A DNA stretch of 64,000 nucleotides from positions 26,989,001-27,053,000 of the forward strand of contig OY727099.1 in NCBI GenBank assembly GCA_963402885.1. The letters run 5' to 3'. Position numbers and translations under genes: made by a program. Position 1 is the stretch's first letter. Every line of letters begins with the position of its first letter. The stretch comes from Antedon bifida. Its lineage: Eukaryota; Echinodermata; Crinoidea; Comatulida; Antedonidae. Shown here piece by piece: positions 8,933 through 63,836 of this stretch. The notes beneath the pieces are model-generated. The model was given only the letters and a program-made list of their open reading frames with translations, searched no databases and had not been told where the DNA came from.

Positions 8933-11900
8933 TCACCTTTTCACATTATCGTTGGTCTTTACAAGACTTAGGATGTTCTTAGCTTGTAGTACCAATGGCA
9001 TGTCTATCATACTGCCACGGAAGGTCATTGCACCCTAAAAAAAACAAACATTTTCATACATTGCTTGATTGTCCCGATTAATACTCTCCCAATATCGGAA
9101 GCTATCCAAAAACTTTTCTTGAGGTCCAAAAGGTCCCAAATTCATTTTTACCATTAAAAAGACATCCTTAATACCAGAATTTCCAGAAAACCAGACATAT
9201 TAGGCCAGCCCAAGGGTGTTCAGTATTGGTAGAGTTTCCCCAAACCTCGGACATGACAAAAACTTTACCTTTCCTGACTGTTGGTGAGTCTCAAATTCTT
9301 TGACGAGTTCTTGAGCCCATTCAACTTTTTCATCGGATGGACTGAATGCTCGTTGAACCACGTCCACCTGATTGGGGTGAATGACCTGCTTACCAGTAAA
9401 CCCCATAGTCGCTCCTTCTAGTGATTGTGTCTCAAGAGACTTGAGATCTGTATTGTATTTTTATAAACAGGCTTGAAATATTATTATCATTATATCTGAC
9501 AAATGGTGCTTGTGTGTTGGCAGCAATTAAGCTGACCTTATTTTCTGATCTATTACAACATCAAGAAAATGTCATGTCTATTATGGGCATTTTTTTGTCA
9601 CATAAAGTTTGATAGTGTAGACAGAGATTTACAGCAATTTTGCTTTGGATTACTTTACTAAGTATGTAGGGCATGCCAGCCTACATGTGAACGCATCCTT
9701 AGAACATCCCACTCCCTAACTTACCACGGAAGTTAATGTGAACCAAATCAATTGCTTGCAATCCAAATGCTTTTGCTGTTGTAACAACTTTTTGTCGTGC
9801 ATACAACAATTCATTGGCTCCTTCTGTTCTACTTGCACCTGTACAAGAAAACTAATAAGTAATGTATATGTCTCTGAACTATTTTAAATGGTTATACAGT
9901 ATAATAGTAAATGGAAAAAGTGACAACTAACTATATACATCTGTAAATAAGAATCTTAAAATAACACTTGCCGATGTCAGCACAAAAATCATCTGATCCA
10001 AAAACCACCCCTTCAAGCTGAAATGGAAGAGTCTTAGAAAGTTCCATGCCTTCTTGTAGAATGTCCTTTAAGTTTATAAGACCAATAGCACTCTCAGTGA
10101 ATATGACAAGCTTTGCTTTATAATTTGGGCAATTCTTGGTCCTCAAAACATCTACAAAGATTTCAGAAAACTGAAAAACAAAATTAAGTCAAATATTCTC
10201 AGAAGTAGTTTTAAACACTGCTCAATAAATGAATGGTATTATACAAAAATTACAAAACACACAACAATTTTTGTAGGTACATGTAAAAATCAAAAATATC
10301 AGAAAAAAAAATTATCTTCTCACCAAATGTAGATCATTCTGAGTGTTAACTTTTGGAAGCATTAAGGTTTTTGGTAAATTATGAGCTTTGTAAATTATAT
10401 TCAAGTCATCCGATACTATCCCAGAATCCATAGCATTTATCCTTACGGCCAAGTCGCCTACACCCGGCGTTGATAAAGAGTCAAGTGATGCTCTGATGTT
10501 TTCTCTTGCTACATCCTGCACAAAAAAAACTTCTTGAACGATGATACTGTTTTTTAACAATATATTATTTTTATTATTATTAATAAATATTATTAATATT
10601 AGGATATTTACAGATTTATTAGAGTTTACAGTTTAAAAATTTAAATTAATACAGTAGGCCTAGTAATAGTCCAAGAGCATTAGGGTTTGACCCGGAAATT
10701 TCTGGTAACAAGCTAATTTTTTCAGGAAAGGTCGAGAACTATGATTGGAACATCATACTAAAAGTCCTGAAAAATCCTCCTTGTGCTCTCCGAGAAATCC
10801 AAGATGGCGTCCAAAATGGCTGCCATTTTAAATTGGTCTATAACTTTGTAACCGCTTGTCGTAGAGTATCGATTTTGGTATCAAATAGTTCACAATATAT
10901 ACATTCCTATTTGCTCTAACAGAAAAGTTTGTCAAAAAATGGCCGCTACTACAGTTTCTGGCAGTTTGACCTTTGACCTGGTCTTATCATATCTCGGTAA
11001 TGGCTTGTCATAGAGAATTAAGATTAGGCCCAAATTGTTCAGAACGTGCATATTTTTATTTGGTGTAATGAAATATTTTATCCCAAAATGACCGGAAGTG
11101 AGGTTATTGACCTCTTATTGACCTATTCATATCTCTTTACTGTATCTCAAGAAATATTTGTCGTAGAGCATTACTTTTGGTGTCATATTGTTTGGAACAT
11201 ATACATTTCTATTTAGTCTAATACAACAGTTTGCCCTTAAATGCTCGGAAGTAAATTAATTTATTGAAAACTTAAAAAATCAAAGAGCTACATATAATAG
11301 GCAGACGATATGAATACTGTAGAAAAAATCTAAATCAAAGTTTTAACTCTGCCTTAAAACATGTTTTGGGCATAGCACATCATCAGGTAAAGTTACAAAA
11401 AGAAAATATAAAGTCAATAACTTACAAAGAACAACTGTCATTGGCTAATCAAAGTTGGTTAAGTAAACAAAAAAATGGGTTATTCATTTTATTGGGTAGT
11501 TGAAGAGTGTTTTGTTATTTTCAACAATAACCTTGAGGGTAAATTTTACTGTAAGGGTATGAACTATACAAGAAAAAACCAAAATAATCATTTATTTAAC
11601 TTCGATAGAACAAAGAATATCATGGCACACGTTAATTGAAATTCTCATACTAGTTATGGTTGAAAAGTTATTGCTACAAAATGTCACCTATATGTAGATG
11701 TCATGAATACATTTTAAATGCGTTATTCGTCTGTAACTCGCATTACAGTACATACGCGAATTAGTGCTTTTGTTTAAATCACGTCGTTATTTTTATTATT
11801 TATTATAGAAATTATGATAATTATTTTTGGTCAGAAAAGTAGAAATTTTATGTAATTTAGAAAATGTATAGACTTTATGATACTTTGAGTGTGAGAATGA

Positions 11901-14153
11901 AATGTTCAGGTCATATACATTTCGCATGGAAATGCTCAATTGGCAGGGAACACTATGTACATGGCATATATTATACTCCGGATTGTCAAAAACTTAATGT
12001 TAAAGACCATTTTATTTGTAAAAATAATGCATTTTGAAACATGAAACCAGGTCATTCCTCCTTGTTTTAAAAGAGAATGCACTATTGAATGTTCTCTAAC
12101 GTCATAACGTCATAACTTTTGGGCAAACATGCAACACCCATACAGATGAACATGATGATAATGATGTGAAAGAAGCAACAAACACCAAGATGTTGAACAT
12201 GCAACATCAGAGGATGAATGACTGTAACAGAATGCTGCTGATCAATGTTGAAGTGATTTAAAGACCCTTATTTTGCATATTTTCAATATTTAATAAATCA
12301 TATATAGGGCATATGGCGATACTTTTTTCATCTTTAAACAGTTAAATATGTAACTGGGGGACTAGCTCAAATGGTAGAGCTCTCACTTAGCATGTGAGAG
12401 GTACCGGGATCATTGCCCGGGTATTCCAATCTATTTTTCATAGATTTCAGCAAGGACCAACTAAAATCTGAATCTGGAAAAGAAAGTCTATGCATGCCGA
12501 GTAAAGAGCGTTTGACGTGAAATACCTAGGGTATATTCTCTTTTTATCATAAATAAGCCATACAACGAACATTTAAAGCAAGGAATGTTTCAAAATGCAT
12601 TATTTTTACAAAGTCAACAAGGCCATATACATGGCTGTAGTCGCGTGCGTAAATTTGAGTTATTGTTTACTGACCGACCAACTGACCGAAATTGCTGAAA
12701 ATGTTTAAAAATGTTCACATTTTTAAAAACATTTCCTCCAAGTATTAAATAATATCCAGTGTCAAAATAACGAAAAAATATGAATATAAGTTAGTGTTTA
12801 CCAACTGACCGACTAACCGAAATTGCTGAAAATGTAAAAAAATTTGTAAAAACATTTATATTTGCCTCCAAGTATTAATATGCAGTGTCAAAATAACGAA
12901 AAAATATGAATATGAGTTAGTGTTTACCGACTGACATAGTGAGCAATAGAGTCGCGTTTGCACGCAACTCAAAATTGCATATAAATGGTCGGATATGTAC
13001 TGTGTACATAGGTATTTGCCAATTGTCTTTTGTTTACTAAACCAACTTTGATTAGCCACTGACAGTTATTCTTTGTAATTTATTGACTTTCTATTTTCTT
13101 TTTGTAACAATTCACTTTACCTGATGATGTGCTATGCCCAAAATATGTTTTAAGGCAGAGTTAAAACTTTGATTTAGATTTTTCTACAGTATTCATATCC
13201 TCTGCCTATGTAGCTCTTTGATTTTTAAAGTTTTCAATAAATTAACTTACTTCCGAGCATTTGAGGGCAAACTGTTGTATTAGACTAAATAGAAATGTAT
13301 ATGTTCCAAACAATATGACACCAAAAGTAATGCTCTACGACAAATATTTCTTGAGATACGGTAAAGAGATATGAATAGGTCAATGAGAGGTCAATAACCT
13401 CACTTCCGGTCATTTTGGGATAAAATATTTCATTACACCAAATAAAAATATGCATGTTCTGAACAATTTGGGCCTAATCTTAATTCTCTATGACAAGCCA
13501 TTACCGAGATATGATAAGACCAGGTCAAAGGTCAAACTGCCAGAAACTGTAGTAGCGGCCATTTTTTGACAAACTTTTCTGTTAGAGCAAATAGGAATGT
13601 ATATATTGTGAACTATTTGATACCAAAATCGATACTCTACGACAAGCGGTTACAAAGTTATAGACCAATTTAAAATAGCATCCATTTTGGACGCCATCTT
13701 GGATTTCTCGGAGAGCACAAGGAGGATTTTTCAGGACTTTTAGTATGATGTTCCAATCATAGTTCTCGACCTTTCCTGAAAAAATTAGCTTGTTACCAGA
13801 AATTTCCGGGTCTGCCTATACTTATGAACTAATGCTCTTGGACTATAAGGCAAAATAGAATAGACGAAAAAAACCTTTCTGTTAATCGCCACTCCATCTT
13901 CACAATCCATCACAGCACAATCTACTGCTAGGCCCTCTAACTTTCCTAACTTCTTTTGTTCACTCCCGGGAACATACATCACGGCCCGCCGAGGTGTGAA
14001 AACCGATTGCCTTCTGATTGACGAGGCAGGGCCTAGCAGTTGAACGTGTATATCTGAAGAGTTAATTCTAGACCTAACCCATCTTTTACATGAAAGTAAT
14101 CTATAATGTTTAACATATGAGTGAGCAATGTGTTTGGCTAAAGGAAAACTCAT
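8933..14153 (-). CDS. CLYBL: Citramalyl-CoA lyase, mitochondrial (CLYBL), complete, 354 aa
   Basis: CLYBL cleaves citramalyl-CoA to acetyl-CoA and pyruvate in the mitochondrial breakdown of itaconate. Six exons in minus-strand order: 14153-13875, 10515-10324, 10170-9972, 9838-9725, 9447-9269, 9034-8933. They total 1065 nt with consistent phases. Motifs of the CitE/HpcH aldolase family are present: RRAVMYVPGS, DCAVMDCEDGVA, AVRINAMDSG, TLMLPKV, FGSDDF, YARQKVVTTAKAFGLQAID, GATMGFTGKQVIHPNQ, and the C-terminal GSMIDMPL, which keeps the aspartate equivalent to human Asp320. The N-terminus (MSFPLAKHIAHSYVKHY) is basic with no acidic residue in its first ~35 positions, as expected for a mitochondrial presequence. 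ATG at 14153 is chosen as the first methionine in frame. The intron after 9972 has a GC donor. The first intron (3.4 kb) carries a foldback element. Human CLYBL is 340 residues. Confidence 0.93.
9566..9633. mobile_element. Partial palindromic MITE copy in CLYBL intron
   Basis: End fragment of the MITE family: ATGGGCATTTTTTTGTCAC, then AAAGTTTGATAGTGTAGACA, then GAGATTTA. The left half is missing. Confidence 0.55.
12005..12620. repeat. Nested inverted-repeat unit inside the foldback element
   Basis: The 26-base arm that includes GTAAAAATAATGCATTTTGA (about 12016-12040) has an exact reverse-complement partner at about 12588-12614. The enclosed ~550 bp includes the tRNA-like sequence. This looks like a smaller element, or an inner layer of the same one, nested in the large foldback. 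Confidence 0.65.
12356..12428 (+). ncRNA. Degenerate tRNA-Ala(AGC)-like sequence (pseudogene or SINE head)
   Basis: It is 73 bases long. It has a D arm TAGCTCAAATGGTAGAGC, an anticodon stem-loop CTCAC-TTAGCAT-GTGAG (perfect 5-bp stem, anticodon AGC) and a T stem CCGGG/CCCGG. The acceptor stem GGGGGAC/GTATTCC pairs poorly and the T loop is ATCATTG instead of a TTCRANY type, so box B is degraded (about three mismatches). Box A is nearly intact. It resembles a decayed tRNA-Ala or a tRNA-derived SINE more than a working gene. Confidence 0.6.
12665..12937. repeat. ~129-bp tandem duplication in the foldback element
   Basis: GTTTACTGACCGACC (12665), GTTTACCAACTGACCG (12794) and GTTTACCGACTGAC (12923) start about 2.1 copies of a unit. 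The unit also contains CCGAAATTGCTGAAAATG, CCTCCAAGTATTAA and CAGTGTCAAAATAACG. Confidence 0.75.
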
Positions 14154-14270
14154 AATTCGCAAATAAATTAGTTCTTATTTTCGTTATGAACTTTTCGAAA
14201 CGTACACCGGCGGCGTACGTAAAGTTTGTTTACCTTTGGCGCCCTCTACAGTAATTACAAATAAACCAAA
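14154..14270. promoter_or_regulatory. Shared head-to-head promoter region of CLYBL and HSCB
   Basis: Only 117 bp separate the CLYBL ATG (minus strand) from the HSCB ATG (plus strand). The region has a small CpG-rich patch (CGTACACCGGCGGCGTACGT, about 14200-14219), unusual in this AT-rich window. Both products are mitochondrial. Transcription start sites cannot be placed from sequence alone. Confidence 0.65.
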
Positions 14271-15215
14271 ATGGCAGCGCCCATGGCAATGTTTCGAATC
14301 CAAAGTTCTAAATTTGTGTTACGGCAGTGTTTTGTGAAGTTTAAATGTATATTACCAAAACCAAATAATGTACATGTTATTGAAGTAAATAAAATATGTA
14401 ATTTTAGGGCCTTTTCAAGCTTACGTAACTATAAATACCGTGTCAGAATGTTAGATGGTTCGCCAGGCCCAGAAACTTTTCTGAAGACTGGCGATCCAGT
14501 TGCAACTAAGGTGATATCGTCCGCTCGTTTTGGGAGTGGTATGTGTAAGGTTATTGGGCCTAAGCATGTCGTTGGATACGATACATACAGTCTAATTCGC
14601 TTTTGTCATACTTCGTCAGTATGTTGGAATTGTTCAGCCTCAAATTCACAACCTGAAATTGGCATAAATTTTTTTTGTGAATCTTGCAAAATGATTCAAC
14701 CCTGTCAAGAAAATATTGACTATTTTCAAAGAATGAGTTTAACAAAATCATTTGAAATAGATACAAAGGAACTTACACAAACATTCCGAAATTTTCAACG
14801 CTTACTTCATCCAGATAAGTTCAGTCAGAAGTCTCCTAAGGAACAAGAATTCTCAGCTGGTCAGTCCTCTGCTGTCAACAAAGCATATTCAACTTTATTA
14901 AAACCTTTAAATAGAGGATTGTATCTATTGGAACTTCTAGGCCATCCAATTGAAGAAGGCGACTCAATGGTCGATAAAGTATTTCTTATGGATATGATGG
15001 AGTTAAATGAAGAGTTATCTGATACAACCAACCTAGAAATTGTGAAGAAAATCGGCGAAGAAAATGAATTGAATATTAAAGAGTTAATGATACAACTTGC
15101 AGAGCTATTTAGGAATGACCAGTTGAAAGAAGCGAGAGATGTCTTAGCAAAACTAAAATATTACACAAACATTGACGACAAAGTGAAAGAAAAACTTGGT
15201 ACATCAACAGTTTAA
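14271..15215 (+). CDS. HSCB: Iron-sulfur cluster co-chaperone HscB (mitochondrial J-protein), 314 aa, single exon
   Basis: HSCB delivers the scaffold ISCU to the mitochondrial Hsp70 during iron-sulfur cluster transfer. The open frame has no intron. The N-terminal zinc site has the two CxxC pairs of animal HSCB: CWNC (Cys118, Cys121) and CESC (Cys136, Cys139). The J domain follows (about 151-215), with the HPD triad at 180-182 in LLHPDKF. The helical C-terminal domain has RGLYLLELLG, DMMELNEEL and AKLKYYTNID. The first 37 residues have no acidic residue and are rich in Arg/Lys, fitting a transit peptide. Residues about 40-115 are extra compared with the ~235-residue human protein and I recognise nothing in them. 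The first ATG has a good context (CAAAATGG). An AATAAA lies at 15219, just after the stop. Confidence 0.95.
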   Translation: MAAPMAMFRIQSSKFVLRQCFVKFKCILPKPNNVHVIEVNKICNFRAFSSLRNYKYRVRMLDGSPGPETFLKTGDPVATKVISSARFGSGMCKVIGPKHVVGYDTYSLIRFCHTSSVCWNCSASNSQPEIGINFFCESCKMIQPCQENIDYFQRMSLTKSFEIDTKELTQTFRNFQRLLHPDKFSQKSPKEQEFSAGQSSAVNKAYSTLLKPLNRGLYLLELLGHPIEEGDSMVDKVFLMDMMELNEELSDTTNLEIVKKIGEENELNIKELMIQLAELFRNDQLKEARDVLAKLKYYTNIDDKVKEKLGTSTV

Positions 15216-20965: not shown

Positions 20966-20995
20966 ATGTGATTGTAAATTAATTTTTTATTGAAC
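20966..20995 (+). promoter_or_regulatory. 5' UTR segment of WASF exon 2 with start-stop uORF
   Basis: The exon starts right after the acceptor at 20964-20965 with ATGTGA, a minimal start-stop upstream frame. It lies 30 bases before the WASF ATG. If the proposed first exon (ending ...ATGTG) is joined, a second ATGTGA is created across the junction. Confidence 0.45.
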
Positions 20996-23900
20996 ATGCC
21001 GCTTATAAAACGACACGTAGAGCCAGTACACCTTAGTCGAGGCACAATCGACAAGGGAATTAGGAACGAACTTGAATGTGTGACTAACAGTACATTAGCT
21101 GGTGTCATACGCCAGCTAAGTAACCTCAGTAAACATGCCGAGGATATATTTGGCGACCTCTATCAAGAGGCAAACTCGGTTTTTGTCCGAGCCAATGTTC
21201 TTCAAGACAGGATAGATAAACTGTCGGTGAAGGTAACTAAGTTAGACGCAACACAGGATCCAGGTAAGTGCAATAATTTTATTTTTTTTTTCGTGCGGTA
21301 AAATTAGAAAGAAGTTTCAATTATAAACTTTCTGGAAAACACAACAAAAAAATAAAACACTGAAAACAAATTTTTTTAATTCAAAACCAGATGTTTTTAT
21401 AAAATTTTGTTTGGTTTCATGTTACTATTTAATATGTTATTGGGTGATTTTTAAACCGTGTCGTTATAAAATAAACGCTATACTTCCTACAGCGTCACAT
21501 AACATTACAGGAAGAATTTAAACTCACTGAGTAGCAAGGAATTGGTCCCTTCTGATAAGGTGTTAGCGACACTAACACCACAGACATATTCTATGGCAAT
21601 ATTTGCTTTGCTTAGTAAATAGTCATTTGCAAAAGTTTAAATTGTCAAACATTTTTTGTTCCAATTCAATAGGACTAAAAATGTTTAAGAAGATTATTTC
21701 TTTGTGGCTATAAAGCTTTGTGTACACTATCAAAGTAGTGTGATGTGCCCAAATATGGTAGTGATAAGCCCAAATATGGTAGAGATATGACATCATCTTG
21801 TCCATATATGGGCACATCACAATTTTTTGTTGCATAAAGTTTCATAGTGTAGACAGAGCTTAGCTAATAATGAATAGAAACAAAATTAAAGATTCATTAT
21901 AATTGGTCATATTTTTTACTCTAGACCACCAAACTTGTGGTAATGGCTTGGATTAGTCCAAGAAGCAGTATTACACCAACATTAGCAAAGCTAATTTATA
22001 GTTTACAGTATTCAAATAATCATGATTATTATAGATATGCAATTCATATTATTTTTATTTAAATAATATTAAGGTGTATTAATCTAGCACATATAATAAT
22101 TAATCATAAAAATCTGTCATTCGCACATTATTACTTTTTATTTTATACTAAATAATGCACATTTTTTAATAGTAATGAAAGATAATTATTTGGCATACAA
22201 GAGTGCTTGTCTTGAATTTTGTAATTCCAGTCAAATACTAGACAAACATTTCTTGGAAGCATTTATACTTTATATTTTGCTTTTATTCTCAGCTGTAGAT
22301 AGAAAAGATAATAAAGTTTCACCACTACATTTGCATATTCGTTAAAGCAAACTTCACTGGCCATTACACTATTATTTTGTCGTATGCAGCAATCATTTGG
22401 ACCAGCAAATTTCTCCAAACATTTTATTTGAAATTATGTTGAAAAGTGTCTGATAACTCTTGAATGTTTGTGATGTTATCTGTCTTGTTATTTGCATTTG
22501 ATATCCCAAAACATTGCTATCAATTCAATTTTATCAAATTATACAATTTGTGGCCTGAAGAAATTCAATCATGAGACCAACACTGGTTCAATTAATATGC
22601 AAATGATTCAATTAATATGCAAATATTATGCAATTAATATGCAAATGTAGGGTGATAACTATGCTAATTATTTTATTTTTTTCAATTAACCTGTGTTTTG
22701 TCTGCCATGGTAATAAGCAGTCGACGTACATTTTTATTTTTTTTGGCAATTTTTCAGTTTTATTACAAGATATTCATTTGCGTAAAGCTTACAAAAGCTC
22801 CACGCTCATGGACCAACAAGTAGTTGCGGGTCACACTATGCCCTCAACAATGAGGGAGCTATATATGCTATGCGATAAACCACCGAAGCTGAACTTACTC
22901 ACCCCTTACAGGTAATGGTTTAGTCTAAAACGGACGCAAATCAAAGGTTGTGTAACAACACGTCTCTACCAATCAAAGACTAGTCACAAGGCCTAACATG
23001 GTGCACTATACACTGGCGTAACATGGTGCTCTTAGATAGTATACACGCTTTAGAAAAAAAACAATCATTTATATTTTTTAGTTTTATAATCTATAACTTC
23101 ATCACAATACTACTATATGCATGCTGTAGAAATAACAAGACCCTTTTTGATTGCATAAATGACACTATGACTATAAAGCAACAGAACATTACAATCATCT
23201 GTACCATTCAGTGTTGTAATATGCCTTTCAATATGATCTTAGTTGGACGGAGTTTGGTAGCTACTGTATCTCACCCCGGATTGGCTTGTAGGCATGTGCA
23301 GTAATCATAAGAATATGTTGCTTTGTGGTCATTTTGTCAAGTTATCAAAAATCATTATTTCATGTTTACAAACAAACATAATATCAACACATCTATACAC
23401 ACTTTTTTTTATTCAAAATTGCAGTAACAATATCAAGTATATTATCTTGTCAAAAGTTAGTCTATGTAATTTTTTACCTGTACCCCTTTCACGTTGCATA
23501 GCAAAACTGATGAATGATTTTACACTCCAGAATTTTGGAAGGCGATGTGAGAATAGTTCTACGCAAGTGCATTAGATAGAATCAGCAAAAGTCAAAACTA
23601 TGTGGCAAAATAAACAGTAGAAAATAGCGCTGTAGAAATGAAAACAACCCATCATTGACTCTGATACAGTAATAGATTATTGATACAGTAATAGATTATT
23701 GATACAGTAATACAATAGATTTGTAACATCTGTCAATTATACCTCTGAATTGAAAGTCTTTAAATGTAACCAAATCATCATCATCATTGTACAATATTTA
23801 ATGTGACACAGAAATATTCATAAAGTTGGGTTACTCTTATCGTGGCAAGAGTACCCTCTCCGTTTCTGGTTTTCTCGAATAAAAACTTGTGAGGAGTGTT

Positions 23901-26900
23901 TTGCTACAGAAATTAAAAAGAACTGTGAATTTGTGGGCACTGTAGTTCTCACACCTACAGTACAGTATGTTTATGTGGAACCCAAAATGAGGTCTACTGT
24001 ACATTCTATTCTCCTCAGGGTCAGAATATTGTCTGAGTTTAAACATACTGTAGCTGAAATCAGTTTAAAACTTACTGTATGTGTTTATTCTAGACATACA
24101 GTATAATACAGTAATACATTATACAGTAATATATTATACAGTAATATATTATACAGTAATATATTATACAGTAATATATTATACAGTAATATATTATACA
24201 GTAATATATTATACAGTAATACATTATACAGTAATATATTATACAGAATACTCACTGATATATGTAAAGCACAGAGGCATAACTAGTTAAATTCTTTAAA
24301 CATTGTTAACTGTATTTATAGCTGCCTTTACCAATCCAGACATGAAGCACAATTTATGCCTGAAACATGTTCATAATTACCCTACAAAAAAAATCTTAAG
24401 TTTCCATCAGTTTAGATGAATAAAATTCTTTTTTTCTCGGGCTACTTGTTAGTCGTAAATTTGAAGTTGACGATAAAGTAAGTTGCGTTTATTAAACATG
24501 CAATCACGTTGATAATCATCAGTGACAGTATCTGTGGCTAGCAGTTGAAATTAATTTTCATGTTTTTAAAATTGATTAATATCAGATTCATAGAAATTCC
24601 CAAGCCTTTCTTTTTATAATTAATTTTGGAACATGCTCTCTGTTTTTGCAATTGATTACTATCTATTTATAGAAATATAAGTTAGTTACACAGCCTCTTG
24701 CATATTATACTGTACTGCATAAAGTACATACAATTAAATATAATGCTTATTACTGTGCACACAGTCTTACCTCTTATTCTGTGGATTCTATTTGGAGAGC
24801 CTCTCGACAGATATTTTATTTATAACTTTTAGGTGATCCTGCCTCATTGATTTACTTTTGTACTCTTTTTATGTCTTACTTTGTATTGCATTTGAAATTT
24901 GGCGAAATAAACATATGATATGATACAGAGTAACTGTTATTGTCCAAATAAACTGGAAATTACTCACTTACTGTATAAATAAAAATGTAGAATAACAATA
25001 TAAAATGACAACACTGTCTTCTTCCTTCCTTTCCCCCCACTCCTTCTCTTTTCCCCTTTTCCCTCATCCCCTTCTCCCACCTCTCCACCGATTTAAACTC
25101 GTTGGTCTTATTGTCCTAGTTTCCAATCAGTTCTCAATTCCAGTTTTATTAGGAACGATAAAAATATATGTTAACGATGCTAAGTATTGTAATTACAGTG
25201 CATTAGATCATAACAGTAGATTCTGTTTTATAAATCAAAATTGTCAGGCATTGAATAAAATGTGTTTTGTAATAATGCATCATTACATAAATCATTATTA
25301 CTTAATTAGCTTCCTTTCTGAATTTATTGTATAAAATATATTTTATTATTTAAAATATTGTTCTCTGTTCGGTTTTTTTTATTTAGGTCACCTTTTTACT
25401 TTAAACTGTACACATTTTTAAAAAAAGAAAAATAATTTAGGCATATGCAACAAAAATGTGGTATCATACAAATAATAAACAATGACAATAATAATGTAGT
25501 ATAGTGTGTTTTCATAAATTGTTTCGGTTTAGGTTTAAATTAACAAAATCTTATGAGAATATTCTGAATTTTATACAAAACTTAGTTTTGAATTTAAACT
25601 TAAAGGTCATGTCATTCTATATTCTGGAACATTAATAATAATAGTTAGTATGCACAGTATATTTAATGTTCATATGAATGTAGTGAAAGCAGTAATAATG
25701 ATTAAAGTTTAATGTTAATTGAAGATAATTCATAATTTCTTTCATTTATTTAATTTTTCCAAAAGGCAATTTACAATACAATCTTCTACAATCTTTCATT
25801 ACTACACAAGTTGTATTCAGTATAATAGTAATGATCTAAGTCATAATACATTTGGAATCTTAAAATAGATTCATGGTTGACAATGTTACTTTATTTTTTT
25901 AATTCTTTTTATTTTATTCTTTCACATCCAGTGTATAGACCAATTACAGGATGAAAATATAAATATAAAAACACACAAAAAAATAACCAAGAAAATCTTA
26001 ATAGTTAATCAATCTATACATTATTCATAAATAATAATCAAACATTTATAATCTCTGATTGAAATCTACCAAAAAAAGTCTTTAATTCAAAATAATTTTA
26101 ATCGTCATGAGTTATTTTATGTTTAATAGTAATTTATTCATTGTACAAGTTATCTACATCGCTTAAGTTGTCCTAGTTGGATGTTCATCTATTAATGTTA
26201 ACCCCTTATGAAACCAAATAAAGATCACATTGAATTTGGTTTATACACTTGGGATGCTGCCTGCTTAACTCAAGCAATTTGTATATTAATATAATACAAA
26301 TCTCATGCTTTAAGCAAATGTCCTGACTTGAGCAATTTAAATATACATGTATTATGCGTTTTCAATTTTACATTTTATTTTAGTACAAATAATGAATTTA
26401 TTGTAACGTATAATATTTATAGCAATATTTGTAATTGTTGTGGTTGGTTGTCTAAACCACACTGCCTGTATTGCTGATAATATTATGTTTATGATAGCTA
26501 CTGTACATTACAGTAATCAAGTGTTTATTTGCGTAGACATTGAGTGTAGTATTTAAGTATGAACTAATTATTTTAAAGAACACAAAAATAGAATTTGTAC
26601 TATACTCAGTGGTGGTATACAGCATCATTACCTTACCTTTACCTTTGTAATTTAAAGTAACATAATCATTTTTAGATAATTGGGTCAATTGACGATATTA
26701 GATTAACAGGCCTAAAATCATTAACACCATAGCCTAAAATGAACATGTATATTGTTAAGGTTCAAGGTACTCTGTCCATTAATTTGATTTGTAGTCATTC
26801 TGACTCCTGCTGCAGTTGTATTTAATGTATTCAAATCTATATCATATTGTTAGTGTTGTAATTATGTATGTTTGCTGTTGGCCCTGGTAAGGTTTACCAA

Positions 26901-29900
26901 ATCAATAATTTTAAATTCTCACAAATTCAAAGCACACAGTATTAAAATGACAATCCTCTCATTCATGATTTAAATATAATAATAATATCCTGGATTTATA
27001 TAGCGCCTAATGTTGTGAACATTATTACCCCAGTCATAATATAAATGTACAGTACACTACAGTATATTTTGTGTGTATTTAAAAGAGAAAAGAAACTAGT
27101 TTATTTCCATTGATCTATAGTTGCACTACAGTCTCTTTCAAACTACACTGTATATAGTCAGCTAAAACAAACAAATGTTTTTTATCATAATAAAATACTA
27201 GATCACCATTTAATGAGGGAGTATATTTATTGTGACTAGATAAACATTATAAAAAGAATATTATTATATATTTTATTCTTTAACTTCCTGTAGTGTATTG
27301 ATCAAACATTGTACAGTAGTAAGATAAGTGTGTATTTAGTATATTTTATTTTAAATGTTGGATTGTTCGATTATTACAATACAGTACACATTCATTATTG
27401 ACCAATTTGAATGTAATACTAATAGTTTGTGCGGAAGAATACGATAATATTTTTTTTACAAGCATTTATCTAGGACAGAAAAAATACCCTCCCCCTTGCT
27501 CCTCCTGATCCATGGAGATGTCAAATGTAAGCTTTACCTAGATAAACAAATGGTATCTTCAATGACTATTAAGTACATACTATACACCTCGATCCCCTCC
27601 TCTCTTTTTAATCTATAGAGGCATTACTGTATTCTTTATTACATCCTCTTCCTGATCTATACAGACTTTCCATTTTGTCTGAATCATGATTGTATTTCTA
27701 TGTTTCTAGTTTTTTCCCCCAGTAAGTACAGTATAATGATGATGAAATCTTGATGTTATAAGCCTACTAGATCTTATCAGAACAAATAAGATTACGTCTA
27801 AGAGAGGCTTATCACATCAATCATGTCTACAAATCAAAAGTCCATTTGCACAGGAAATAAAGATTTTGTAAATATGTTATTTTGCATCAACAATCAAGTT
27901 TGGGAAACAACGTTGTCTTTGACGTCATCGCTGTTAAATCCAGGTCGTGCCTCATCATTAGTTTCGTTTATTCATTTAATTTATATAAATGTCTGTTTTC
28001 TTTTGGAATAATCAGCGTTAAGTTTTATTACTGCAATATATGAATCCACCCACGTACAGTAGCAATTGGAAAAAAAATGCTATGATTAAAATAATTGACA
28101 ATATAAGGTGTTTCTCTAAGTAGAATTACTGAAATCAGATCTACATTCTGCATTAACTCAACAACCCACATCAACATGTTATAATGTAACATCCACATCA
28201 GTATATTGTAAAGACATAAGTAGAATATTAAATTCTTGTGCGTTATATTATAACAATAAGAGATCATGACTTCAATGTTTAACTGCTGTGACTGAGTTAA
28301 ATCCCATGCTCAAGTCTAATACCACCCAATAATCTATGCTAAAAATGGGACACAAGACATGAATGAAATTTGATTATTACCGGTATTATCACACCTCCTA
28401 ATTTTTACCAAATGTTGTACCCAGACTCCCCCCCCCCCCCTCCCCCCAAGACTATACTCGTTTATTTACAGTACAGTAAACATGTGTAATCTAAAGCTTT
28501 CGATAAATAAAAGAGGATGATCACACAAAAGGGAACAAAGTTATTGGCCATAGTATTACATATAAATAATAATACCAAAAAAGTTTTCCCCCGGTGAGGA
28601 ATTATACATACATTAGTTATGCATTACTATTATTAGTATTTAATGGTATTAAGGAATTGGCTTTAATCATGATAAGAAAGTACTGTGATTGATATCTACG
28701 TTCAAAGTCCATTGACAGTTTTGTATTATACTGACCCAAAAGAAGAGTGTCAGTATTTTGTATTGGTCAGTAAATAAATATCAGACTTATTATTATCATG
28801 ATCATGTTATCACAATCATAGTACAGACAGTGACACATACTGTAACACAACAACTTAAAAACAAACAAAAATATGGTCAGCTTAAAATATACTACAATTT
28901 ATAATTTTTTTAATTCGCTTCTTTGCATATTAATACTGTTTTTCTTTAATTATCCGTTGTATACAGTTTTGATTGGAAGAGATGTATGTTAATGTTGTTA
29001 CATTATCTTTGATATACTATGTTGTATGTTGTCTTTAATGTTGTCAATGTTGTTTAGTGTCCTTACAAGATATACTGGCATATGCTCCGTTTCAAAGTAA
29101 AGTGATTTTAGACCAAGAAATGTTATCGAAAGAGAAGCGTCCGACCGCCGTTCACGACACTTACACTGTTAAGTGTGAACCACCTCCACTCTTACACATT
29201 CTCACTCCATACAGGTAATGTATTCATTTGCTTCCATGTTGGGTTTAGTGGTAAGTTTGTTAGAGTATGGTTGAATGTCTCCTTTGGGACACCTCAAAGA
29301 GGACACTTCCCCATGACATGAACGAGGGCAACAAATGTATTACACTACAGCCAACCCCTATTCAGAGGACACTTCTATTAAGGGGACGCTTTGTTTGGTC
29401 CTAAAGGTGTCCCCTTAATAGGGGTTCTACTGTATATGTTTTAGTGTTATGCCCCCTCGAATAAATGGCCTACTGAACAATAAACCACTCCAGGGCATTT
29501 ATTTAAAGTAAGTCGTTCAACTTAAATATATTTTAACCTTGTGAAGCGATTGGAATTCTCGGGAATTTCAATTTGAATATTATTTAACATAACGTCATGG
29601 ATTATTATTAACATAAGTCATCATATATCATCTGGTAATCATGTATGTAAATAAATGCGTTCAATTGGGCTGATTATCAATAGTGATTTGTATTATATAC
29701 TTTATCATATATAACCATATTTAATATTACCATATTTGCCAAAATTAAACAATAAATTGATATAAATTTAACATCATATTGAGCAAAATTTATTGGAAAG
29801 ATAAATGCTGTTAAATTGTTACCTATTATGTGTTCTATTTTCTCTTTCAAGGATTTTTAAATTTTACCATTTATTTAAATGTCATCAGCTTTGGGCTAAA

Positions 29901-32900
29901 TTATGAAGGAAACACAAATCAATCAATGTCATTATAACCTATTCTGTGACAAATTAAAATTGTCACGAATCAAGTACAAACAAATTACAAGAAAAGCACT
30001 AAAAAAATCACAGTTAATATATAACTGACACTTTAGATCATTATGAACATATAACAGTATGAGCTGTTTAAAATATCCGTATCCAGTAATTTGTTTAGGT
30101 GAAGTTGGATAATTCAGTAGACTGAGTATAAGCTGTCTCCTTGTTTCAACAGAATCACCTTATCCTTAATTTGTTTAGGTAAAAGTTGTATTAAATATGG
30201 AATAGCATTATAATTACAATATGACACTGTATACAATTTATTAGGCGATAATTTTTTGGCACACATGGCGTGTCATAGCTATACCTGAGTATGACTGTGC
30301 CTAGGGTCTGTATGATCAGAAAACCTATGTTCTAAGCAGAAATTCGGCTTATATTCATAAAATAAAAACAATTTGGCACACATGGCGTGTCATACCCATG
30401 ATGCTGTTCCTACGGTCTGAAAGCAGAACCTCATTTTTTAAATGACTAAACTAATATTTTTTTGTACTTTTGTTTCTGTGTTATTTTAATTTCATCAAAG
30501 TTTTCAATTTGTATTAATTTAGATTTGAAAATGTTGTATGCCATGTGTGTTTGCACAGTCATGCATTATTTATCCAAACCCATTTATAAAGGATTGATAA
30601 TGCTAATAGCCGTAGTAGATCAATTCACGTCAAGAATGGTGACGTTTAAAAATGAGTAGTCTCTGATGTACAGAACCCTCGGGAGAGACATTGTTATAAA
30701 TTGGAACACACTCTCAGAATCATCAACACTTGAATGCATGTTGTTGTTACATACAATGCCAGAATTTGTTTGTTCTGATAGAAAAATTGTTCCTTTTAAT
30801 AACCAAATTCTTTTTTGGGAGTTATTATATTATTATTACATTATTGTTGAGCATTGGTTTTACACCAAAAATGGTCCATTATTTAAACGATGAAATTGTC
30901 TTTCTTTTTGATAAAATATGAACAAATTGACAATGTTTTCTTGACCATTTAAAAAACCGATAAAAAGAAAAATTAAAAAACTCCCAATTTAAATAAAATA
31001 TCTAAATTAGGATTTGATATTTATTTAAGATCGAACTTGGATGATAATGGAACATTAACAGTAAATAACATTGGTAGACAAAACAAATTCCCAGTTATAA
31101 ATAAAGGTTAGGATCAAAATTAAAATGGTTGAGTATTGCCAACCCTCTGATGTTGGCTAATTATTTGACTGCATAATTTACAGCTCATAAGTTTAATGGT
31201 AGTCCATGACTTTTTCAACTTCTAAGCCACAATGCTCATTAAATTTTCATAATTATTATTCTAAAAAATGTAATAAAAATAATAAATTATACAATGGCAC
31301 TTAAAGTTTAGTGGTTTTCTTATAATCAGAAAATTCAGTCTTTCTCAGGTTAAGATCTGAATGGGCCGCGAACTTAAAATGTCTTTAACAACTAGAATTT
31401 AATTCGTCACTTTGACGAATTATAGGTGATCATTTTTATCATTTTACTGAAATTAATTTTTTTTTAAACATGCACGTACGTTAACATACGATCGGAAAAT
31501 GTTGATGTATGCCATCCTATTATATGCTTATAGTGCTGAGTTGTGCCTATATGCCATATACAATATGTACAGTATATACTGTATATCTATATACAGTGTA
31601 GCATAGGTGAAATTACGGGACACATGTTCTAATTTTTTGGCATGATGACGTTATCAAACTAAACTTTAAGATAACAATTTCGAAAGATAATTAATTGAGC
31701 AAAAAAATATAAGATTTGGAAAAAAATTTGGCACGTAGAAGCGCTGTGCGCGCTCTTTGAATTGTGTATAACTTTGACGAAAAATATGAAAAAACTACTT
31801 TTTCACTTCAACTGGCCATATGTTAACGTCACAACATCCGATAGGCTTAATTTTTATATGAATTAATATCTACATTTTATCAGCTTTCATAATAAATTAT
31901 AATCATCAAGGTAACCTTCAATTCTGAAGAGCTGTAAGATATTCAAATTTACTGCGAAGGTGAAATTACACGGCCTACGTTATTTAAGTTTTTACGCGTG
32001 ATGACGTCATTAAAATGAAGGTAGTGTCAACTCATGATAAAGATAATTAATTAAGCAAGCACATACTGAAAGTTGTGTGAAATTCGAGCACACATAACCA
32101 AGATGCGCTCTGTTGAATGTGATAATCTACACAAAAAGATAACAAATCCTAATTTTTAAATTCAAGTGGCCATTTGATGACGTCAAAACATTTTGTACGT
32201 AAAATGTGTACATGAATTCATATCTACAACTCAATGGCTTCCAGAATAAGTTAAAAAAATCGGGGGTCATCTTGCATTCTGAAGAATTATTTTCATTTTA
32301 AAAAAGACTTATTTTTTACCATTTTCAGAACTTTTGTAAAATAAATGTGCGCATTTTGTCATTTTTAACGTGCTCGTATAGCGTTATTTTAAGTCGGAAC
32401 TGACTCAAATTTGGTGAATGTACTAAGGATGGTGAGTAGAATGAGATTTGTAAAAAAAATTCATATTTTTTACGCTTTTTAAGTATCGCGCGCGCAAAAA
32501 CGCATTTTTGCGCAGTAATTTTTTGAAACACGCAAATGGCCTAATTCATGCTCTAAATTGATCAAAACTTAATTTTGAGCGTTTTAAATTTTTAACGCGC
32601 GATATCACGCGCATGAACCTACGTGCGCGTGCGTTTTTATTTGCTAATATTTTTACCCTTGATCTGAAGTTTACGTGTAGTGAATTTCATTAATATGTGA
32701 TAATGAATTATGGAGATATGATTGATAATGTGATTTCGCAAAATGGCGTATAAATGTCGTCACGGATGAGTGATCACGCTGGAAAGCTTATTAGGATTAA
32801 GTTGTATTATTTGAAAGATATTCTGAAATTTTTGTAATCATTGACATTAAACTTTTTGAGATAATTGTTACACAAAATAGTGTACAGAAACAATAAAAAG

Positions 32901-35900
32901 AAAAAAAATAATAAAAAAAAAAATAATAACTAGAATTTAATTCGTCACTTTGACGAATTATAGGTGATCATTTTTATCATTTTACTGAAATTAATTTTTT
33001 TTAAACATGCACGTACGTTAACATACGATCGGAAAATGTTGATGTATGCCATCCTATTATATGCTTATAGTGCTGAGTTGTGCCTATATGCCATATACAA
33101 TATGTACAGTATATACTGTATATCTATATACAGTGTAGCATAGGTGAAATTACGGGACACACATGTTCTAATTTTTTGGCATGATGACGTTATCAAACTA
33201 AACTTTAAGATGACAATTTCGAAAGATAATTAATTGAGCAAAAAAATATAAGATTTTGAAAAAAATTTGGCACGTAGAAGCGCTGTGCGCGCTCTTTGAA
33301 TTGTGTATAACTTTGACAAAAAATATGAAAAAACTACTTTTTCACTTCAACTGGCCATATGTTAACGTCACAACATCCGATAGGCTTAATTTTTATATGA
33401 ATTAATATCTACATTTCATCAGCTTTCATAATAAATTATAATCATCAAGGTAACCTTCAATTCTGAAGAGCTGTAAGATATTCAAATTTACTGCGAAGGT
33501 GAAATTACACGGCCTACGTTATTCAAGTTTTTACGCGTGATGACGTCATTAAAATAAAAATAGTGTCAACTCATGATAAAGATAATTAATTAAGCAAGCA
33601 CATACTGAAATTTGTGCGAAATTCGAGCACACATAACCAAGATGCGCTCTGTTGAATGTGATAATCTACACAAAAAGATAACAAATCCTAATTTTTAAAT
33701 TCAAGTGGCCATTTGATGACGTCAAAACATTTTGTACGTAAAATGTGTACATGAATTCATATCTACAACTCAATGGCTTCCAGAATAAGTTAAAAAAATC
33801 GGGGGTCATCTTGCATTCTGAAGAATTATTTTCATTTTAAAAAAGACCTATTTTTCACCATTTTCAGAACTTTTGTAAAATTAATGTGCGCATTTTGTCA
33901 TTTTTAACGTGCTCGTATAGCGTTATTTTAAGTCGGAACTGACTCAAATTTGGTGAATGTACTAAGGATGGTGAGTAGAATGAGATTTGTAAAAAAAAAT
34001 CATATTTTTTACGCTTTTTAAGTATCGCGCGCGCAAAAACGCATTTTTGCGCAGTAATTTTTTGAAACATGCAAATGGCCTAATTCATGCTCTAAATTGA
34101 TCAAAACTTAATTTTGAGCGTTTTAAATTTTTAACGCGCGATTTCACGCGCATGACCCTACGTGCGCGTGCGTTTTTATTTGCTAATATTTTTACCCTTG
34201 ATCTGAAGTTTACGTGTAGTGAATTTCATTAATATGTGATAATGAATTATGGAGATATGATTGATAATGTGATTTCGCAAAATGGCGTATAAATGTCGTC
34301 ACGGATGAGTGATCACGCTGGAAAGCTTATTAGGATTAAGTTATATTATTTGAAAGATATTCTGAAATTTTGGTAATCATTGACATTAAACTTTTTGAGA
34401 TAATTGTTACACAAAATAGTGTACAGAAACAATAAAAAGAAAAAAAATAATAAAGATTTTATACAATAACAATAGGTGATCATTTAGAATTCTAAATGAT
34501 CACCTAATAAAGATTTTATACAATAACAATAGGTGATCATTTTATTCTAAATGATCACCTAATTATAATGTATTTCTTTCTTCCAATGAAGATAACAATT
34601 AAATGGAAATATATTTACGTACGTTTTTTTTTTTGTAAAAACAAAGATAGGAAGTTGTACTATGTTTAATGTTTCTCTTACAGGGAAGATGGCAAAGAAG
34701 GGTTAGAATTCTACACCAAACCAAGGTACTTCTTTGAATTATGGTGCGAAGAACAGAAAAAGAACATTTCTGTACTCAAACAAGAGCGTAGGCATCGACG
34801 AAAGGTTAGACACCAGTTGTGTTACATATAATAAATAATTAAAATAAGTAGTTTGTACTTGTTCTTATAATCTTTATAACAGAAGGTTTTAAAAAAACAT
34901 GAAACAATTAATTTGTGATCCAAATTATCAGACTTGGTCTGTCTTTATATAAATGTTAACCAATAGGATGGAAGTTGCTTCAATGTAGTTTGTAGACCAA
35001 TAGTTTACTTTTATTTATAACAATTTTGTTGTTGTTGCTTTGAAAATTCTTAGCATAAGAAACCAGAAAAGGGAACATTATCCCATCAGCCAAGAAAAGC
35101 AAAATCAAGGATGGACCAATGGGTGCGGTTGAAAGATGGAGCGGATCTTGTGCAAGACCAAAAACCCCAGATTGAACATCACAGAGCGCCACCAGAAGAA
35201 AACAATACAACACATAACCAGCTTGATGTACCAGAAGTTGACCAGCAGTACACCGGCGGTATGTACCAAGACCAAGAGGACCGAATGAGCAGACAGGAAA
35301 ATCGTAGATCTGCACCGCACCGACCGGCAGCTGCACCACCACCACCGCCGCCGCAACCAATGGGTAACGGAGCACTACCAATAAATACTGGATACCAGAA
35401 TGACTACAATTTACAACATGTACCATCACCACCTAAATACCCAGATGCACCGGCGTACCAACCACAGATGACCGACCAGGATTACAGACAAGATATAGAC
35501 TATGACGAGCATAGTGACAATCTGCAGCATATCCCAATAGCGCCACCGCCACCCATGCAGGGATATCCAGAACCAGCATATATTCCTGCACCTCCACCAC
35601 CACCAGATGTTGGTTTTGTACCTCCTCCACCTCCTGTACCGCAAGGTCCTCCTGTACCGACGATGATGACGTCTTCTCCAGCTAGAGTAGCGCCACCACC
35701 ACCGAAGGAACCAGAGGAAAATCCCAGGAGTGACCTACTTACTGCTATCAGAACAGGTACTGATCATTTTGCTACATTTTGAAAACATGCACAATGATTA
35801 GCCATGCTGTATAACTCTATTCAGTTACTGAAGTAACTCTATTCAGTTACTGAAGTAATTCTCTTCAGTTTGTTCAGTCTTATTCCAGGACTTTGATATT

Positions 35901-36335
35901 TAGTCTTTGATTTTCCATTTATTTTTACTGAAAACATGGAACACACACAAACCAATTGTAACTTCAACATCTGGCAAGTTTCTTAAACTCAGTATAACCC
36001 CTCTGACACTCCTATTAAGGAACACCTCACTAAGAGACACCATCCTGTAATAAAATCATTTTGTTTTTATTTATTTAAAATGTATTACTGAACTACTGTA
36101 AGTGAACCAAATTGGTATTAAACCTGTTATGTATATCATTTGTAAATGTACTATTAATTGTTTTTCAGGTATAAAGCTACGTGAAGTAGATCGTACCCAG
36201 GCTAAGAAGCAGGGGTCTGATAGCACTCCAAACTCAGTAGCAGCCATCTTGGCTAGACGTCTAGCTGTTGAACTTAGTGATTCTGAAGACGATAGTAATA
36301 CAAGTTCAGACTGGGAGGATGATGATTGGACATAG
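20996..36335 (+). CDS. WASF: WAVE/WASF family actin regulator, complete, 470-471 aa
   Basis: WAVE proteins activate Arp2/3 at the leading edge as part of the Sra1-Nap1-Abi-HSPC300 complex downstream of Rac. Coding exons: 20996-21263, then 22758-22911 (3a) or 29058-29214 (3b), then 34684-34804, 35054-35756, 36169-36335. The WAVE homology domain is clear (MPLIKRHVEPVHL, RNELECVTNSTLAGVIRQLS, HAEDIFGDLY, LTPYRED, GLEFYTKPRYFFELW), followed by a basic segment (KQERRHRRKHKKPEKG) and a long proline-rich linker in exon 5. The C-terminal VCA module is complete: WH2 (RSDLLTAIRTG, from about residue 405), central (VAAILARRLAVEL) and acidic tail ending SDWEDDDWT. The start ATG is the first in frame in its exon and matches WAVE N-termini. 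Vertebrate WASF1-3 are about 500-560 residues. The gene appears to be the single-copy ancestor-like form rather than a specific vertebrate paralogue. Confidence 0.95.
21713..21862. mobile_element. Full palindromic MITE copy
   Basis: Terminal repeats AAAGCTTTGTGTACACTATC and ATAGTGTAGACAGAGCTTA; inner AAATATGGTAGTGAT/AGATATGACATCATC block as in the other copies. About 150 bp, in WASF intron 2. Confidence 0.75.
22588..22646. repeat. Three tandem ATTAATATGCAAAT repeats
   Basis: CAATTAATATGCAAAT occurs at about 22589, 22609 and 22631. Each holds ATGCAAAT, the classical POU-factor octamer, next to a TAAT core. The cluster lies 112 bp upstream of alternative exon 3a. Confidence 0.7.
22758..22911 (+). 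CDS. WASF: WASF alternative exon 3a
   Basis: 154 nt, entering in phase 1 (one base carried from exon 2) and leaving with AG to be joined to G of exon 4. It encodes LLQDIHLRKAYKSST...ELYMLCDKPPKLNLLTPYR. It has good splice signals (TTTTTCAG acceptor, CAG|GTAATG donor). It corresponds to the vertebrate LQDITMRKAF...LTPYR segment and is the more conserved of the two alternatives. Confidence 0.92.
24095..24247. repeat. 15-bp tandem repeat (TATACAGTAATATAT)
   Basis: About ten head-to-tail copies with occasional ACATT for ATATT. The unit is 15 bases, so it yields a repetitive open frame that is not evidence of a gene. Confidence 0.9.
25016..25088. repeat. Polypyrimidine tract
   Basis: Nearly uninterrupted C/T run (CTTCTTCCTTCCTTTCCCCC and similar) of about 70 bases on the plus strand in a WASF intron. 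Confidence 0.8.
28427..28446. repeat. Poly-C run
   Basis: Twenty bases of C broken by a single T, in otherwise AT-rich intron DNA. Confidence 0.9.
29058..29214 (+). CDS. WASF: WASF alternative exon 3b (homologue of exon 3a)
   Basis: 157 nt with the same phases as exon 3a (in phase 1, out with AG). It encodes SLQDILAYAPFQSKVILDQE...DTYTVKCEPPPLLHILTPYR. Shared with 3a: LQDI near the start, a serine after it, DQ(E/Q), a conserved tyrosine, a C..PP.L block and LTPYR at the end. The flanks are also alike (acceptor ...GTTTAG, donor CAG|GTAATG). Joining 3a to 3b would shift the frame and reach TAA within 3b, so only one can be used per transcript. Confidence 0.88.
29340..29437. repeat. Dispersed palindromic repeat (AGGGGAC/GTCCCCT type)
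   Basis: CTATTAAGGGGACGCTTTG is followed by AAAGGTGTCCCCTTAATAGG, forming an imperfect hairpin. A related degenerate copy lies near 35985-36055 (CCTATTAAGGAACACCTCAC). Such words are common in marine invertebrate genomes. Confidence 0.6.
31390..32932 (-). mobile_element. Helentron-like non-autonomous element, copy 1 of a tandem pair
   Basis: About 1.54 kb. Read on the minus strand, its 3' end is AAATGATCACCT, then the hairpin AATTCGTC-AAAGT-GACGAATT, then AAATTCTAG followed by TT. This order (right inverted repeat, hairpin, CTAG terminus at TT) is that of Helitron2/helentron elements. The right end of this copy runs directly into copy 2 without the terminal hairpin. No Rep-helicase frame is present. 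Confidence 0.65.
32933..34563 (-). mobile_element. Helentron-like non-autonomous element, copy 2 with doubled 5' terminus
   Basis: Nearly identical to copy 1 over 1.5 kb, with few substitutions. Its right side (5' end on the minus strand) carries AGGTGATCATTT...AAATGATCACCT, the inverted partner of the internal AAATGATCACCT near its left end. That terminal segment (AATAAAGATTTTATAC ... ATGATCACCT) is present twice, at about 34450-34506 and 34507-34563. The outer flank reads AATT, consistent with insertion between two T residues. Confidence 0.65.
34805..35053 (+). other. Short WASF intron
   Basis: Donor AAAG|GTTAGA and acceptor TTCTTAG| flank AT-rich sequence. Nothing else is seen. Confidence 0.7.
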
Positions 36336-39107: not shown

Positions 39108-39394
39108 AATGACCAAATTTTGACCCTTTTATTTTTAGATTTAACTGGTTACTATGGCTCTGTAAGATGATAACGCATATATGGCACTATTTTCGCCTAA
39201 TAATTGAATTTTAAAAAGTGGCTATTTTGGCCATTTTTCGAAAAAAATCCCTGAACTATAGTACAGGGAAATTTTCAAAAAATGACCAAATTTCGACCTT
39301 TTTATTTTTCGACTGGTTACTATGGCTCTATTAAGATTATGATAACACAATATATGCGCATATAATAGTATGGCCATATTTGGACCTTTTTATT
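39108..39394. repeat. Left edge of satellite: divergent monomers
   Basis: Monomers of the edge subtype. They carry GGTTACTATGGCTCT, GATGATAACGC, CACTATTTTCGCCTAATAAT and AAAAAGTGGCTATTTTGG instead of the core TATACGTC, GCATAATAACAG and AAAGTGCGTATTTTGG. Confidence 0.8.

Positions 39395-53212: not shown

Positions 53213-63836
<10,624 letters not shown>

Follow-up and report, generated by a model that had tools for sequence, protein, structure and literature searches.

Few alternative splice forms have been described in the WASP family of actin regulators, to which WAVE, an activator of actin branching, belongs, and the closest precedent for the arrangement reported here comes from a mollusc. 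A survey of more than 400 eukaryotes, in the part of it available, gives the family as being without alternative splice forms except for exons 11A and 11B of the Aplysia californica WASP gene, a pair known from complementary DNA and expressed sequence tag (cDNA/EST) data (PMC3298513). Here we describe one complete WAVE/WASF gene in which coding exon 3 is present in two homologous versions, named 3a and 3b, on the plus strand of a 64,000-nucleotide stretch of the crinoid Antedon bifida (GenBank assembly GCA_963402885.1, contig OY727099.1, positions 26,989,001 to 27,053,000 of the forward strand). We call this whole stretch the window and give its features in window positions. In our judgement 3a and 3b are probably mutually exclusive exons of a functional gene. 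Like 11A and 11B, they would be a homologous pair in a WASP-family gene, placed in a region linked to autoinhibition; however, the Aplysia gene is a WASP, its exons alter part of the second WH2 and the C domain rather than the segment discussed below (PMC3298513, available part), and 3a and 3b are known from genomic sequence alone.

The survey drew on cDNA/EST data, and the available text calls the Strongylocentrotus assembly of that time one of the worst (PMC3298513)—an echinoderm pair could therefore have been overlooked. The initial annotation of this DNA had stated that it knew of no such exon pair in vertebrate WASF1-3 or insect SCAR, and this agrees with what the survey reports in the part consulted. 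In a literature search that left most subscription journals outside, no title among the matches listed reported a mutually exclusive exon pair in WAVE or SCAR. The pair thus looks new for WAVE.

The second point of comparison is the WAVE1/WASF1 complex (3P8C, 7USC; PMC9481577), with which the Antedon protein shares the same meander, Y125 and Y151. As described in the accessible parts of the structural papers, the meander passes over Sra1, and the W/V helix of the WCA region is held in place by helix α2 of the meander; P131-L134 of WAVE1 forms part of the pocket that locks Y151, and Rac1 bound at the A site opens this lock (PMC9481577, PMC5614565). Replacing WAVE1 residues 131-136 (PPPLNI) by a flexible linker gave more Rac1 binding and an autoactivated complex (same sources). 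The initial annotation had placed the exon pair in the WAVE homology domain, winding over Sra1; the position against Sra1 stands, and the segment is better worded as the meander, just after the N-terminal helix bundle. No alternative WAVE exon is given for WAVE1/WASF1 in the available part of the survey (PMC3298513), whereas in Antedon residues 90-140 come in two versions.

The coding structure of the gene can be read from the window in full. Exon 2 (20966-21263) holds 30 nt of 5' untranslated region and the ATG at 20996, and encodes WAVE residues 1-89, belonging to the helix bundle. Exon 3a (22758-22911, 154 nt) is the canonical version of residues 90-140 in WAVE1 numbering, and exon 3b (29058-29214, 157 nt) is a diverged alternative of the same segment that is one codon longer. 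The constitutive exon 4 (34684-34804) begins at R141 and contains the equivalent of Y151; exon 5 (35054-35756) encodes the proline-rich region and the start of a WH2-like motif; and exon 6 (36169-36335) encodes the remainder of that motif with the central and acidic region, ending in ...DWEDDDWT and a stop codon. Membership in the family is clear at the N-terminus: exon 2 aligns with WAVE1 without gaps beginning at residue 1, and the first 179 residues of the 3a form align gap-free with WAVE1 (3p8c chain D, E 1e-63), so that WAVE1 residue numbers can be used directly. The WH2-like motif scores 15.5 bits with Pfam WH2, below the cut-off of 23.1, and its sequence LLTAIRTGIKLREV is readable in the protein, as are a proline-rich stretch with PPPPP runs and the acidic, tryptophan-bearing C-terminus DWEDDDWT.

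The case for exclusivity begins with the reading frame. Both versions of exon 3 are flanked by AG and GT and share an identical donor (TACAG in the exon, gtaatg in the intron). Their lengths are both 1 mod 3 and differ by whole codons, and they enter and leave in equal phase: the last base of exon 2 opens a split codon that is completed as GTT by 3a and as GTG by 3b, and both exons finish with the AG of a split codon that exon 4 turns into AGG (Arg). Either exon alone gives an open frame, of 470 residues with 3a and 471 with 3b, and both proteins end in ...DWEDDDWT. When 3a and 3b are joined, a TAA is met inside 3b at 29098-29100 (nt 463-465 of the coding sequence), 114 nt before the junction of 3b with exon 4. 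When both are skipped, a stop falls at coding nt 291, 98 nt before the junction of exons 4 and 5. Nonsense-mediated decay targets follow a 50-55 nt rule, and by this measure both kinds of mRNA should be targets. Because both exons or neither breaks the frame, only "exactly one" is permitted by the frame itself; any productive mRNA would carry one of the two between exons 2 and 4, and nonsense-mediated decay of the remaining products would enforce this, whatever sets the choice. The initial annotation had the exon coordinates exactly, and its account of the phases, the alike splice sites, the proper joining of each exon to exons 2 and 4 and the frame shift on joining both is borne out in each particular.

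Published searches for mutually exclusive exons look for homologous exons that are alike in length, splice sites and reading frame (PMC3228551, in the part seen); 3a and 3b are homologous and are alike in length, splice-site type and frame. They resemble the exons of that study in their similar length, same phase, homology and fixed neighbours; they differ in that there are just two versions and in that exclusivity is deduced from the frame.

Homology between the two exons was examined in the set of 2154 open reading frames (ORFs) of at least 20 residues in the window. Here 3a and 3b find each other with phmmer (E 3.4e-7 and 1.2e-6), and the motif LQDI..DQ..Y..C..PP.L..LTPYR that the initial annotation had pointed out is present in both; their alignment score was reached by none of 2000 shuffles. 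Against 177,635 sequences of solved structures, 3a matches WAVE1 residues 92-140 with E 6.2e-12 and 3b matches the same region with E 1e-5. A profile built from WAVE1, 3a and a second WAVE gene of this genome, leaving out 3b, finds 3b at E 1.8e-14. No third copy of exon 3 was found among the window ORFs, either with phmmer (the next hit has E 1.8 with 3a as query and 6.9 with 3b) or with profiles (next best 1.6 for a four-row profile and 0.65 for the one without 3b).

Codon-by-codon comparison indicates how this similarity has been kept. The two exons are identical at 22/49 first, 34/49 second and 14/49 third positions, the last being the expectation from base composition (about 0.285, computed from base frequencies). 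Third positions at chance combined with retained second positions indicate an old duplication under protein-level selection. In a neutral drift model that starts from 3a and runs to the observed DNA identity, the sequence stayed free of stops in 192 of 5000 runs, and 17 or more amino-acid identities were reached in none of the 5000 (the best run had 16); for comparison, 688 of 19549 random intronic 150-mers are open in a given frame. Identity to WAVE1 is 26/49 for 3a, 23/49 for 3b, 51/89 for exon 2 and 19/39 for the compared part of exon 4, so 3b has barely decayed relative to the rest of the gene. All 17 of the 49 residues common to 3a and 3b are present in WAVE1, and at none of the 49 sites do the two agree with each other while differing from WAVE1; six sites match WAVE1 in 3b alone and nine in 3a alone. 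This pattern indicates that neither 3a nor 3b is a degraded version of its partner, and we infer that each may retain its own part of a WAVE1-like ancestor. Collinear similarity in the flanks extends only about 6-8 nt beyond the exon ends, again as expected if the duplication is old. With 49 sites and one outgroup, these comparisons point to an exon duplication early in the animal's lineage or older.

The same evidence bears on what else 3b might be. It could be a poison exon, added to 3a-containing mRNA to send it to decay and so to set the level of WAVE, with no 3b-only protein made; the TAA of the double product, 114 nt upstream of the next junction, would serve such a purpose. However, a poison exon needs no protein conservation, yet in 3b WAVE-specific residues are kept and second codon positions conserved, and the exon has the length and phase needed to replace 3a, which makes this explanation unlikely. 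We give still less credence to 3b as a dead or decaying relic of exon 3 from the old duplication: 3b scores lower than 3a against WAVE1 and its acceptor looks weaker, but it has no stop and both its splice sites are intact, and saturated third positions beside conserved second ones, at an amino-acid identity that drift produced in 0/5000 runs, speak for selection. Least probable of all is that 3b belongs to a transcript from an inner promoter in the 6.1-kb intron separating it from 3a, rather than being the exclusive partner of 3a, since its acceptor is normal and in frame with exon 2 and such a transcript would be without the helix bundle that anchors WAVE in the complex (PMC5614565, available part).

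If 3a and 3b are indeed exclusive alternatives, the choice between them would fall on a part of WAVE that matters for its control. Since exon 3 covers residues 90-140, the stretch equivalent to WAVE1 131-136 lies wholly inside the swapped exon, as PPKLNL in 3a and as PPLLHI in 3b. P131, P132, L134 and Y125 are retained by both versions; at position 133, 3a has K and 3b has L. The R98-K99-A100 of α2 is kept in 3a and is Y-A-P in 3b, which also has one additional Lys before C128. Exon choice would thus swap the first half of the meander, with α2 and α3, the site at Y125 and the tyrosine-lock wall formed by P131-L134, and exon 4 would leave the Y151 "key" and the "stem" unchanged. We take Y125 to have a role in phosphorylation; a literature search on Src and Y125 phosphorylation in WAVE1, mostly outside subscription journals, returned no paper. 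The two isoforms may form WAVE complexes that differ in their hold on the WCA, and hence in their Rac thresholds. The 3b form is predicted to hold the WCA more weakly, giving a looser and more easily activated complex; the opposite sign is possible.

Should this be true, isoforms with a common Y151 key and differences confined to residues 90-140 would be a natural test of the tyrosine-lock model, and in particular of how α2 and position 133 help to hold the WCA. It would also mean that a lineage could diversify WAVE control through splicing besides gene copies. On the side of the partner protein, the Sra1/CYFIP profile PF05994 has 12 matches at a single locus on contig C10. There is no clear doubled CYFIP exon among these 12 matches, though some neighbours overlap in profile positions; the N-terminal part of CYFIP lies outside the profile.

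What could set the choice was looked for in the splice sites and flanking introns. Incompatibility of U2 and U12 splice sites was rejected by eye, the sites being ordinary GT-AG. A candidate for RNA pairing joins 22940-22977, lying 28-66 nt downstream of 3a, to 28968-29013, lying 45-90 nt upstream of 3b (both plus strand); the complement score of 33 was reached by 4 of 3000 Markov pairs. Six flank pairs were compared for complementarity, and the top two share one partner, the stretch upstream of 3b, paired in one case with the region downstream of 3a (33) and in the other with that upstream of 3a (28). This layout would suit competing pairings; as real pairs from the window also reach a score of 33, it is only a lead. 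No other copy of the stretch 22915-22990 was found in the genome.

Other elements in these flanks are weaker. Upstream of 3a, ATTAATATGCAAAT occurs three times in 22591-22646 (plus strand) and may be a pairing arm or a POU-like site; upstream of 3b, TTTGCATATTAAT at 28922-28934 (plus strand) is an exact complement of 13 bases of that repeat. A match like that of the threefold ATTAATATGCAAA with its complement upstream of 3b arose in 1 of 400 null pairs with 200-nt flanks and in 6 of 150 with 500-nt flanks, the flank having been picked post hoc, and in 57 of 3000 when scored as an alignment. The 14-mer ATTAATATGCAAAT has 108 occurrences in the genome against 18 for a reversed control; being over-represented genome-wide, it may be a transcription-factor site. 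A long imperfect complementarity between 21710-21861 and 22916-23053 could loop out or hide 3a: it scores -74.1, where shuffled sequences average -40.3 and the lowest of 60 reaches -55.7. This test is not specific, because in each of the four flanks the top real tile out of 126 also lay below the lowest of 60 shuffles. No Rfam family reaches threshold in the window.

Several points weigh against 3a and 3b as a functional exclusive pair, or against parts of that account. Use of 3b in mRNA and its exclusivity with 3a are predictions from the genome of a single species. The 23 bases before the acceptor AG hold 18 pyrimidines in 3a and 15 in 3b, and the additional purines suggest that 3b may be rarely used; with its weaker-looking acceptor, 3b would be the regulated exon and 3a probably the default. 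Steric exclusion is ruled out as the cause of exclusive splicing, the exons being 6.1 kb apart. Among 3000 real pairs of 200-mers drawn from the window, 129 equal or exceed the complement score of 33. Position 133 is altered in both versions, and the sign of any functional effect is a guess. We hold the exclusive pair to be probable all the same; a fuller account is more tentative, and we would put it as a possibility short of even chances—an old exon duplication, near the base of the lineage or older, gave two exchangeable halves of the meander, and splicing, perhaps through competing RNA pairings, sets the Rac threshold by cell.

The genome was also searched for further WAVE genes and exon copies. 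A second WAVE gene, compact and diverged, lies on the minus strand of contig C12 at about 23985200-23987240 (L010:7200-9240). Its five coding exons form one open frame, whose product is poor in proline and carries a WH2-like stretch and an acidic tail, and it has a single exon 3 of 154 nt with the phase seen in the window gene. This exon 3 is identical to 3b at 15/49, to WAVE1 at 14/49 and to 3a at 10/49 sites, values too low to decide on descent from a 3b-like form. The possibility that 3b is an exon of a neighbouring second WAVE gene was discarded, as the other gene is 3 Mb off and on the opposite strand, and exon 4 turns up once in each gene. A genome search with 3a recovers, besides the query, 3b (E 0.003) and one match on C11 (E 3.1), which contains stops and was set aside as noise. 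With 3b as query, nothing but that exon and 3a (E 0.003) came up. This kind of genome search is loose and missed the second WAVE gene's exon 3, which is more diverged, so distant copies may exist. A scan of viral contigs with 3b gave no match, a result without bearing on animals.

With exon 4, the genome search finds the window gene once, the second WAVE gene once and two weak matches; it gave no second exon 4 copy near the window's WAVE gene. The weak matches lie 5 kb apart on C12, near 13031600 and 13036740 (E 0.31 and 0.74), with 44% and 48% identity over 25 and 23 residues, and one has a TAG. A third N-terminal match, at 17734437-17734691 of C12, seems to be part of an NHS-like gene on the same chromosome, whose N-terminal exon resembles WAVE exon 2 (48%); some 24 kb further downstream, in the same orientation, is an ORF that matches Pfam NHS (5.9e-6, 25 bits against a cut-off of 27). 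The N-terminal exon and the NHS-matching ORF are at L013:8392-8733 and L015:3849-4142, both on the minus strand. A fourth, weak N-terminal match is on C13 (E 0.18).

The window holds several other features. In the intron between 3b and exon 4, segments of 31386-33532 are repeated at a spacing of about 1.54 kb, and the longest repeats are 98-99% alike and hence recent; a tandem array at 39370-40000 has a 185-nt unit in at least 3.4 copies, 94% alike. An HSCB-like co-chaperone is encoded in one uninterrupted ORF at 14265-15212 on the plus strand, with HSCB_C above the cut-off and DnaJ below it. Pieces at 9203-14174 on the minus strand match a citrate-lyase-like C-C bond lyase below the cut-off, malic enzyme is matched at 57117-57485 on the minus strand, and the C-terminus of MMS22L is matched at 5974-6243 on the plus strand.

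The mitochondrial contig of the assembly (C27, 15,844 bases) carries a COX1 with six in-frame TGA codons. Judged at those conserved positions that could be assessed, COX1 reads best with AAA as Asn, AGA and AGG as Ser and ATA as Ile, the echinoderm/flatworm code, and the protein resembles echinoderm COX1. The mitochondrial evidence as a whole indicates an echinoderm and probably a crinoid. COX2 begins about 10 bases past the COX1 stop on the same strand. In the 4.3-kb mitochondrial locus the COX1 strand has 46% T and 26% A, close to the 44.9% T and 24.0% A given for a crinoid mitogenome in the available part of PMC10478607.

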